DNA from: Empedobacter falsenii
GTDB taxonomy: Bacteria > Bacteroidota > Bacteroidia > Flavobacteriales > Weeksellaceae
DNA length: 64,000 nucleotides
NCBI RefSeq assembly: GCF_019308355.1
Contig: NZ_JAAGKM010000013.1
Location: forward strand, 1-64,000
Direction of reading: 5' to 3'
Made by a program: the position numbers and the translations under genes. The notes below the pieces were generated by a model. The model had not been told where the DNA came from and did not search any database. It was given only the letters and a program-made list of their open reading frames with translations. Numbering within the stretch: position 1 is the first letter of the stretch; each line of letters begins with the position of its first letter. Below are positions 21,051-30,159 of this stretch, piece after piece.

Positions 21051-22780
21051 TTAATCATACAAATCTAAACCAAATTCTTCTTTTAATTTTAACAAAATCG
21101 GGTTTTTATCTGATAATTTCTCAAATTTTTCTTTGTTTGATAAGATATGATTCGTTGCTTCCTTCTCAGAAAACTTAATTTGAATACTAAAATAGTGATT
21201 CTTAAGGAATGCTCTCAAACTATTTCTGATTCGATCACGGTATTCCTCAAATTCTTGTTCCGATGAATGAGAAGTAAATTCGAAAATAATTTCATCACCT
21301 TCCAAGCCAAGTTCAGTTGTCATCAAAGCATTATAGGACGGAATATTATGTTCGATTTTTAATCGATCCAAAAATCTTTTCCAGCCTTCTTTTACTTGAT
21401 CCAATGTAAACTTTTCTCGAGGCAAATCATTTCGTAAAATCTCCTCTTGATGTTCTTCTACTTTTGCTCCAGGCAAAGCCATCTTAAGACTAAACGACGA
21501 ATTACCATTTGTTCTAATTGGTTTTGAAGCACGCGTATATTCTTTGACTTCTTCTGAAATCGAAGTTTTAACGTGTTGCGTATTTACCTGTTGTGAAGTT
21601 TGCCCATTTTGAGGAATAGAATTATTTTGCTGAATTTGAGGAACTTCAATTTTAGAAGTTTGTTGTTCAGAAAAATAAAACGTTGGCGGAACTATCCTAT
21701 ACTTTTTTTTTTAAGCCCGTTTTCTTCTGCCGTTAACGAAGCCAATTGCATCAATGCAATTTCAACTGTTAAACGTGGATTTTTACTCGATTTGTAGTTT
21801 AAATCTGCCTCATTACAAATTTCAATTGCTCCAAATAAAAACGTTGCTGAACATTTTTGCGCATGCTCCAAATATTTTGCTTTTATACGCTCTCCTACTT
21901 CCAATAAACTTACTGTATTAGCTGTTTTCGCCATTAATAAATCACGAAAATGAGCACCCAAACCACAAATAAATAAATGTGCATCAAAACCTTTGTTCAA
22001 AATATCATTCAATTGCAACATCGCTTGCGGAATATCATTTTCCAAACACGCGTCTGTCATCTTGAAATAGTAATCGTAATCTAATACATTCAAGTTTTCT
22101 GCTACTGAAGAATAGGTCAAATTTTTATTGGTAAAAGTTGACATTCTATCAAAGATTGACAATGAATCGCGTAACGCACCATCTGCTTTTTGAGCAATCA
22201 AATGTAATGCATCATCTTCAAAAGTTACCTGTTCTTTTTCAGCAACATTTTTCAAATGTCCTTTGATATCTTCAACTCCAATTCGTTTGAAATCATAAAT
22301 CTGACAACGAGAAAGAATCGTAGGAATAATTTTATGTTTTTCTGTAGTTGCCAAAATAAAAATAGCATGCGCTGGTGGCTCTTCTAACGTTTTCAGAAAT
22401 GCATTAAAAGCAGCTGTTGACAACATATGAACCTCATCAATGATGTAGACACGATATTTCCCTATTTGAGGAACAATACGCACTTGATCGATTAAATTTC
22501 TGATATCGTCAACCGAATTATTAGATGCCGCATCCAACTCAAAAATATTGAAAGCAAAATCTTGATCGCCTTCTACTCCATTTTCTTCGTTGATTTTACG
22601 TGCTAAAATTCGAGCACATGTTGTTTTTCCAACACCTCTTGGTCCACAAAATAAAAGAGCTTGCGGCAATTGATTTGACTTTATCGCTTGCTCCAAAGTA
22701 TTTGTAATAGACGCTTGTCCAACTACATCTTCAAAATTTAGCGGGCGATATTTTCTGGCTGAAACAACAAAATTTTCCAT
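21051..22780 (-). CDS. dnaX: DNA polymerase III tau/gamma subunit, two frames joined at an A10 run
   Basis: The clamp-loader ATPase. The zero frame (22780-21692) gives a 362-residue gamma form: Walker A CGPRGVGKT (about 45-53), Walker B IIDEVH (113-118), SRC sensor (157-159) and lid domain III. It ends three residues after a run of ten A (complement of 21703-21712), reading LKKKSIG and TAG. The -1 frame is open from that run through a Gln/Asn-rich linker into the tau tail at 21482-21051 (SDKNPILLKLKEEFGLDLYD end); joined length is exactly 577 codons including stop. The zinc-binding Cys of E. coli DnaX are absent, as I recall for other flavobacteria. A -1 slip, RNA slippage or a missed A in the assembly would each make tau. 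Confidence 0.93.
21703..21712 (-). other. dnaX slippery site (A10 on the coding strand)
   Basis: Coding strand reads CTT AAA AAA AAA AGT. The heptamer A AAA AAA is in the phase needed for -1 tandem slippage, and ten consecutive A also favour RNA polymerase slippage. Eleven A would fuse the two frames; nine would stop at GTA TAG. Confidence 0.75.
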
Positions 22781-22821: not shown

Positions 22822-23175
22822 CTATTCATTTTTTTTAATTTTTTTTAATTTTTTTTCTGTCAAAACGAATGTTAAAAAACAAAAGGTAGTCATACAACCT
22901 AGTGAAATAATTGAAGCAAAGATGTAATTTATTTCAAATAAAAGTCCTGATAAGGCAATTAATAAAAAAATTACTCCAAAATAAAACATAATTTTTCTGG
23001 AATATTTTTGTGCAAAATTCCAATTCTCAATATTTTTCATTGATAAGTTTGACCTATAACCATATAATGGATTAATATTTTTTGCAGGAAAAATTAATTG
23101 TACAATTCCCATAATTATAAATATTAGACCAAATAATAAGGATAAAATAAAAAAAGGGCTTTCTGTATTCATCAT
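22822..23175 (-). CDS. SdpI-like membrane protein
   Basis: A 117-residue inner membrane protein with three hydrophobic spans (about residues 8-30, 60-82 and 86-107). The motif PLYGYRSNLSMKNIENWNFAQKYS (about residues 36-59) is the hallmark of the SdpI/YhfL family, whose founding member gives immunity to the SdpC toxin in Bacillus. Most members have no known role. Either of two adjacent ATGs can start it. Its upstream region is interrupted by the IS982-family element 47 bases before the start. Confidence 0.8.
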   Translation of the reverse strand: MMNTESPFFILSLLFGLIFIIMGIVQLIFPAKNINPLYGYRSNLSMKNIENWNFAQKYSRKIMFYFGVIFLLIALSGLLFEINYIFASIISLGCMTTFCFLTFVLTEKKLKKIKKNE

Positions 23176-23213
23176 AAAAAAAAATTAAATCATCTTAGTC
23201 TTTATCATTTTAT

Positions 23214-23222: not shown

Positions 23223-24201
23223 ACCCGTTGTGCATTTTAAATAATTTGGGTTTTTAGATTATTAATATTTCGATTAAAGTATGTTTTATTAATGTACTGA
23301 ACCACAGTAAGAGCAGTAATTTTAGCTAAAATTCTGGTTTTAAACCCTTCGAAAGTCTTTGCATAATTTCGTCTAATCATAAACTGATCACATAGTTGAG
23401 AAAATAACGTTTCAATTCTTTTTCGATACTTTTTGAATGGACAAAACTGAGGTTTATACTCTTTTTGATTGGATCTTTTCGGTGTTTCTAATCGAATATT
23501 AGCTTCATTAAATAAGTCAATTTGAATTGTTTGCGACAAATAACCTTTGTCCCCAAGTAGCAAACAATCATACATTTGAGTTTTAACATCTTTCAAAAAA
23601 TGAATGTCATGAACAGATGCGGGACTGATATCAATACTCTGGAAAACACCATTTAAAGAACAAATAGCATGAAGTTTATAGCCATAAAAAGACATTTGCT
23701 GAGAAGCACAAAAACCTCTATTTGGTGCACTATACTGATGTTCTTTGCAAATTTTCGAGCGATTAATTCTTGCTATTTTACACACTTCCAACGGCATACT
23801 ATCAACGATGAAACAATTTTCAAATTCATTAAATTCTTTCGCTAATTTGAGGCGAATACTATTAATTTGCTCTGATAATCTACGTTTTCTACGATTGTAA
23901 ATACTACGCTCAATTTTACAACTTAACGCATTAGGAAGATTTCGAAATAAATGATTTTCACTATCAATACCCATAAATTCAGCTGTTAAGACAAGACTTA
24001 TGAGTTCTAAATCAAAAAGTTTAGGTCTTCTACGTTGATAAATTAAAAGTGTATCAGTTGATATTTTTCGTAGAACTTCCAATATTCTTTCGTAATTTGC
24101 AAGTAAGTTGTTCATTGTAAATGTTTTGTAGTTAAAACAATTTACTGATTTTCAATGAAATGAACAACTTTATTATTTAGTAATCAAAATGCACAACGGG
24201 T
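23223..24201 (-). mobile_element. complete IS982-family insertion sequence (979 bp)
   Basis: Ends are perfect 16-bp inverted repeats: ACCCGTTGTGCATTTT at 23223-23238 and its complement at 24186-24201. A 9-bp direct repeat ATAAAATTA flanks the element. One intact transposase gene fills it. Removing the element and one repeat copy leaves a divergent intergenic region of about 113 bases between the SdpI-like gene and ftsK. Confidence 0.95.
23237..24115 (-). CDS. IS982-family transposase
   Basis: A 292-residue DDE transposase. The catalytic acids are Asp105 (CFIVDSMPLEVC), Asp189 (LLLGDKGYLSQ) and Glu235 (RKRIETLFSQL), spaced as in the IS982 family; an N-terminal helical DNA-binding region precedes them. 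The frame is undamaged and both IS ends are intact, so the element may still be active. The stop codon lies at the inner edge of the left inverted repeat. Confidence 0.95.
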   Translation of the reverse strand: MNNLLANYERILEVLRKISTDTLLIYQRRRPKLFDLELISLVLTAEFMGIDSENHLFRNLPNALSCKIERSIYNRRKRRLSEQINSIRLKLAKEFNEFENCFIVDSMPLEVCKIARINRSKICKEHQYSAPNRGFCASQQMSFYGYKLHAICSLNGVFQSIDISPASVHDIHFLKDVKTQMYDCLLLGDKGYLSQTIQIDLFNEANIRLETPKRSNQKEYKPQFCPFKKYRKRIETLFSQLCDQFMIRRNYAKTFEGFKTRILAKITALTVVQYINKTYFNRNINNLKTQII

Positions 24202-30124: not shown

Positions 30125-30159
30125 AAAAGCAGTTCTGAGAAGAGCTGCTTTTTTTTTTT
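30125..30159 (+). terminator. terminator of the ftsK - ribB block
   Basis: AAAAGCAG (30125-30132) and CTGCTTTT (30145-30152), followed by a long T run. Confidence 0.85.

Follow-up and report, generated by a model that had tools for sequence, protein, structure and literature searches.

The dnaX gene of the window (the whole 64,000 nt stretch of DNA analysed here) is broken at a run of ten As. We consider it likely, with a probability of roughly 0.85, that the gene yields two clamp-loader proteins through slippage of RNA polymerase, in the manner of Thermus but with the polarity reversed. Since the DNA itself spells only gamma, tau would be made only from slipped mRNA. On the T10 template the 3' end of the RNA would slip, giving mRNAs with 10, 11, 9, 12 or other numbers of As. 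The unslipped A10 mRNA and the A9 and A12 forms would lead into the stops beside the run (TAG in frame 0 and TAG in the +1 frame) and so to gamma of about 360 aa, and A11 (or A8) mRNA would join the frame of domains I-III to the tail, giving tau of 576 aa. The features concerned are as follows.

21692..22780, minus strand: zero frame of dnaX, gamma (domains I-III), 362 codons plus TAG, from the ORF, Pfam and TIGR02397
21703..21712, minus strand: A10, the putative slippage run (T10 on the plus strand), from the sequence; A10 in 10/14 and A11 in 4/14 genomes of the genus
21692..21694, minus strand: zero-frame stop TAG, which would end gamma from unslipped mRNA; in the same place in 13/14 genomes of the genus
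21697..21699, minus strand: stop in the +1 frame (the run, then GTA TAG), the predicted end of gamma if the mRNA has lost one A or gained two
21051..21704, minus strand: -1 frame, C-terminal part of tau, 217 codons plus stop, needing one extra A (A11)

The junction reads CTT AAA AAA AAA AGT ATA GGA TAG on the minus strand, and the zero-frame protein, which starts at 22780, ends in GLKKKSIG before the TAG. The first-pass annotation had described a zero frame of gamma length with domains I-III that ends just past the A10 run, and the sequence and profile matches agree with this: the gamma part carries Pfam DNA_pol3_delta2, DNAX_ATPase_lid and DNA_pol3_gamma3, and its 362 residues score 386 bits against TIGR02397, above the cut-off of 250. 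The -1 frame has no stop between the run and 21051, giving 217 sense codons counted from AAG, and the joined product has 576 residues, which confirms from the sequence the open -1 frame to the end of tau and the joined frame of 577 codons, stop included, that had also been claimed. Against NCBIfam NF011531 the gamma part matched positions 1-370 and the -1 tail positions 417-614 (E 9.8e-19, 67.6 bits), both below the whole-protein cut-off; a Pfam search with the -1 tail alone gave no match. The A10 is the sole A/T run of at least 9 within an ORF of the window, a T11 at 30149 being non-coding and an A9 at 23176, directly upstream of ATG 23175, being coding only by stop-to-stop counting. The split of dnaX at A10 was confirmed as real and as more than chance.

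Comparison genes were taken from dnaX loci of the genus, family, order, class and phylum together with 80 named loci. This is not a random sample, as it includes 200 stretches hand-picked from match lists from which not every match was taken. A dnaX match was present in 14/14 genomes in the genus search, 293/296 in the family search, and 148/158, 155/159 and 146/148 in the remaining ones. From 419 loci, four that could not be parsed (L264, L380, L384 and L387) and four exact duplicates were removed, leaving 411 genes; five run-bearing genes were too truncated for a frame call, so that a frame was assigned for 353 of 358. The nulls, the tree and the A9 test cover the first 381 genes only. The sequences are related, with 66 of these 381 serving as representatives under 70 % identity.

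A run of at least nine As was found at the end of domain III in 358 of the 411 genes, and it was exactly A10 in 271. Among the 354 genes of the genus-to-class and named set, run lengths were distributed as fewer than seven (25), A7 (6), A8 (2), A9 (26), A10 (251), A11 (39), A12 (3) and A13 (2), and among the 57 from the rest of the phylum as fewer than seven (19), A7 (1), A9 (17) and A10 (20). As background, the gamma part of 381 genes (354 kb) held 65 A7, 11 A8, one A9 and no A10. The run was kept in 23 of 32 genes at 55-75 % GC, though AAA makes up only 0.24 of Lys codons there, and in 18 of 32 at 50-55 % GC. It occurs in all three codon phases, and it is therefore the nucleotide run that is conserved, not the peptide. 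The 53 genes without a run of at least nine indicate that the device is dispensable in some lineages. Genes without a run include L132, L148 and L153, whose titles name Bacteroidaceae, Prevotellaceae and Bacteroides. They also include L151, a 441-codon dnaX frame on a metagenome-bin contig that is likely to be an artefact; the last bases of this contig are presumably sequencing-adapter sequence.

Stops in the non-tau frames are conserved together with the run. In 337 of 353 genes, as in the window, a stop follows the run within 10 codons in each of the two non-tau frames; in the 323-gene set the count was 307, against an expected fraction of 0.284 derived from other sites in these genes. Where tau lies in the -1 frame, the +1 frame stops within 10 codons in 151/153 genes (123/125 in the 381-gene set, where the null, taken after Lys codons, is 0.44) and in 17/17 representatives under 70 % identity. 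A -1 ribosomal shift would gain nothing from a +1 stop, whose retention therefore favours RNA-polymerase slippage.

The same arrangement is described for Thermus thermophilus, in which passages of PMC1088944 and PMC5009743 report a dnaX A run, mRNAs of mixed length, stops in both frames and the products gamma and tau. The window shares with that gene, as these passages present it, a run of nine or more and, close to it, a stop in each non-tau frame, so that every mRNA length but that for tau would end at once as gamma. The two differ in run length and polarity, with A9 and tau in frame 0 in Thermus, and A10 and gamma in frame 0 in the window. Mixed mRNA lengths are a feature of Thermus in the same passages, and are predicted for the window.

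The frame of tau varied widely among the 353 genes, being 0 in 191, -1 in 153 and +1 in 9. The +1 genes are few and mostly from drafts or metagenome bins, where a miscalled run is possible; as they stand, they cannot be served by -1 ribosomal slippage. Named tau-default genera were Aequorivita, Flagellimonas, Maribacter, Pedobacter, Mucilaginibacter, Dyadobacter, Rufibacter and Hymenobacter, and named gamma-default cases were Flavobacterium, Chryseobacterium lathyri and Halpernia; both polarities were seen in Aquimarina (L109, L111). Parsimony on a FastTree tree of 381 DnaX proteins gave 41 switches of polarity, against a mean of 103 and a minimum of 91 in 100 shuffles, a figure that is rough because it comes from one gene tree and draft genomes. 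The tau-default L119 and the gamma-default L185 have the same A10 and the same 12 nt in front of it, and differ after the run. Pairs of this type differ past the run, and the indel is therefore often beside the run and not within it. The three single-frame genes of the family are unlike these pairs in that the run itself is longer. As slippage mixes frames, the chromosomal frame of tau would be nearly free to drift.

Run length was related to polarity. A9 was found in 41 of 189 tau-default and 1 of 134 gamma-default genes (Fisher p 1.1e-9, on related sequences); among representatives, the only comparison near a fair test given this relatedness, it was found in 10/32 and 0/18 respectively (Fisher p 0.0085). 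The rest of the phylum gave 17/26 and 0/10 (p 0.00044). The single gamma-default A9 gene, L116, may be a miscall; the other named Flavobacterium genes (L115, L117, L118 and L121) have A10. A9 may be avoided because slippage has to be stronger where it is needed for tau.

On balance, and with more reserve than for the window itself, we favour the view that dnaX across Bacteroidota is a polarity-neutral slippage switch. A run near ten and two non-tau stops would be under selection, the frame of tau would drift freely, often by indels in the flanks, and a run longer than nine would be kept once tau depends on slippage. In some lineages RNA-polymerase slippage would have been exchanged for A_AAA_AAG and a hairpin, with two unrelated mechanisms replacing each other at one site.

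The first-pass annotation had proposed a programmed event at A10 with gamma as the default product and tau reached by slippage, which is supported by the conserved break and the stops. It had also held RNA slippage to be likelier than ribosomal frameshifting, and the long retained run, the +1 stops and the lack of a hairpin right after the run point the same way. The anatomy of the gene, its conservation, the non-tau stops, the selection on the tail and the lack of a hairpin of E. coli strength right after the run were seen directly; slippage in the cell, its transcriptional nature and the tau:gamma ratio are what we infer.

The alternative that overlaps most with transcriptional slippage is that both processes act, with the tau:gamma ratio set mostly by RNA-polymerase slippage and a further contribution from ribosomal slippage. 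Every A10 mRNA carries a slippery heptamer, and ribosomes are reported in PMC4363877 to slide on AAA iterations. No stimulator of E. coli strength was seen at the window, and we regard a joint action as possible but rather unlikely.

A purely ribosomal origin, in which -1 programmed frameshifting at A_AAA_AAA would give tau from ordinary A10 mRNA, was considered less probable again, and quite doubtful. The heptamer A_AAA_AAA is in frame inside the A10 of the window; an A10 in any phase contains either A_AAA_AAA or A_AAA_AAG, and some ribosomal slippage is therefore possible. The run is kept near ten As, with lengths of 9 to 13 and not 6 or 7, which argues against a ribosomal heptamer, since that would not need ten. 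The +1 stops (151/153) and the nine genes with tau in +1 weigh against this origin as well. In its favour, a Chlorobium is named as a candidate in passages of PMC5009743.

E. coli dnaX (L406) is the same gene, with the same two kinds of product and an in-frame slippery heptamer. It has A_AAA_AAG, an SD-like AGGGAG and a hairpin of -19.7 kcal/mol, and its tau is in frame 0. Neither stimulator is seen beside the run of the window, where the polarity is the opposite. By eye, no GGAG is present as an SD-like stimulator in the 23 nt before the run of the window. Ribosomes of Bacteroidia are reported in PMC9976891 not to recognize SD sequences, and an upstream stimulator of the E. coli kind would therefore be unlikely to work, which is a further point against the ribosomal origin.

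Downstream structure was compared by absolute fold energies throughout, which depend on GC. The 50 nt after the run of the window folded at -3.1 kcal/mol and those of E. coli dnaX at -19.7, so that the absence of a strong downstream hairpin noted at first inspection holds for the first 50 nt. The same fold had a median of -6.2 kcal/mol in the 353 run-bearing genes, 43 of which were at -12 or below. An 80 nt stretch past the run of the window gave -13.2 kcal/mol (z -2.5), so that a structure that is weaker or lies farther downstream is possible. Fold z-scores, run on 160 of the 323 genes, were rejected as a test for a stimulator because E. coli dnaX itself scored +0.23. By this measure the 73 gamma-default genes tended slightly to structure, with a mean z of -0.55 (7 below -2), against -0.21 (3 below -2) at 150 nt beyond. 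The 87 tau-default genes showed no such tendency (mean z -0.22, against -0.43 150 nt on).

Sites of ribosomal appearance do exist in the phylum, which lends the ribosomal origin some support. L336 and L338, from one other family of the order and 81 % identical in their gamma parts, have no run and have tau in -1. Their zero frame ends CCA AAA AAG TAG at codon 356, with the heptamer A_AAA_AAG as in E. coli, and the site is followed by hairpins of -26.5 and -20.3 kcal/mol. Two genes of the same family, G369 and G376, have kept A10 with gamma as default, and in L336 and L338 ribosomal recoding seems to have replaced the transcriptional form. A hairpin is thus visible where recoding appears to be ribosomal, and the first 50 nt of the window lack one. 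When in-frame heptamers were sought in the 53 genes without a run, 12 had one and 41 had none. Only L336 and L338 among the 12 pair the heptamer with both a strong hairpin and a zero-frame stop that follows at once. A few others, such as L234 and L246, have A_AAA_AAG, a -1 stop two to three codons on and weak folds, and could be tau-default ribosomal sites.

An assembly undercall, in which the true run would be A11 and dnaX one ordinary frame, was raised in the first-pass annotation and is contradicted by the relatives. When run length was compared in close relatives, as had been suggested there, A10 or A11 was found in 14/14 genomes of the genus (one per species), and 13/14 had the 362-codon gamma frame with tau in -1. 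Five of these 13 split genomes are assembled in 1 to 4 contigs, three of them in a single contig. The flanks of the run vary in the genus and the break is constant: in some genomes A10 is followed by G, in two A11 is followed by T (G001 and G005) and in one the A11 begins one base earlier (G008), the split being kept in these three despite the longer run. The sole exception is G010, in which A11 is followed by G and the frame runs unbroken for 577 codons. Of the 81 genes sampled in the family, the genus among them, tau was in -1 in 77, in +1 in 1 and in frame 0 in 3. With gamma as default in 78/81, the earlier expectation that flavobacterial dnaX is usually a single frame was not upheld. The three genes with tau in frame 0 (G010, G063 and G028) all have A11, which is the point in favour of an undercall. 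The break nevertheless recurs in relatives with differing run letters (A10 then G, A11 then T) and is therefore not a missed base; the undercall was rejected, being ruled out as a general explanation and refuted for the clade by comparison of sequences, and for the window it is highly improbable.

The three family loci with one frame, L007 (G010), L419 (G063) and L441 (G028), each carry A11 and a single dnaX frame of 559 to 583 codons, and most of their relatives are split. The extra A in them may be a true indel, a mixed run or a miscall. Open frames of more than 500 codons in the family were seen only in G010 and G063 among the matches listed.

The tail evolves as a protein. Its dN/dS was 0.03 to 0.33 in 11 of 13 comparisons of the window with the genus, dS being saturated in the other two; these values lie in the range of purifying selection, and the tail is therefore used as protein. 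The residues just past the run (KYRIVPP and like) are conserved throughout the genus. A pseudogene or gamma-only gene, with the tail as a relic or as a separate protein from the ATG present at 21482, is thus a negligible prospect: the selection and the kept residues speak against both versions, and the separate C-terminal protein was rejected because this ATG is missing in L010-L014.

A dnaX of this kind has been described before. Passages of Antonov et al. 2013 (PMC3711429) present a 'novel type' of two-ORF dnaX whose tau cannot be made without recoding, covering 17 genes of 12 genera, with runs of seven to ten As in 12 and 10 As in nine. The type is said there to be undescribed and transcriptional realignment is proposed; these passages hold no test on dnaX. 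The window corresponds to the type as so presented, with gamma in frame 0, tau needing a -1 shift at the DNA level and A10 at the junction, and the break is conserved with the tail intact (13/14 in the genus, 77/81 in the family, selection on the tail). Its reversed polarity is hence not new in itself, as far as the passages of PMC3711429 go. They make no mention of a run kept across the phylum, of tau in three frames, of a bias in the use of A9 or of ribosomal replacements. Likewise, the phylum-wide kept run, the drift of polarity, the A9 bias and the ribosomal replacements were not found in the open-access literature searched; PMC3971599, in the passages available, lists dnaX only as present. 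Judged by these sources, the two-ORF slippage kind of dnaX was already known, and what is added here is the phylum-wide pattern of run, frames, stops and A9 bias.

A different use of slippage may be found in Blochmannia, a reduced gammaproteobacterial symbiont. Its dnaX is frameshifted at a poly-A, and restoration by transcriptional slippage is suggested by the authors in passages of PMC3017870. According to the same passages, the shift there falls past the gamma site, in the part found only in tau, and unlike in the window there is no gamma/tau switch.

In this family, full-length tau would come only from slipped, non-templated mRNA. In E. coli, full-length tau links the parts of the replication fork. 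Were the proposed mechanism true, slippage would be a required step of replication here, and annotation of such genomes by single frames would mislead. Sister pairs of opposite polarity would then form a natural experiment on the need for slippage and on the exchange of ribosomal and transcriptional recoding.

In the neighbourhood of the gene, a 292-aa ORF at 23237-24115 (minus strand), transposase-like by eye, lies between the small neighbour of dnaX and an FtsK-like gene. Comparison of this transposase-like DNA beside dnaX with plasmid records gave no near match, and a search for tRNA genes in the 64 kb window found none. The 117-aa ORF at 22822-23175 (minus strand) contains three T8 runs at 22829-22856, spaced at 10 bases, which code for its Lys-rich C-terminus.
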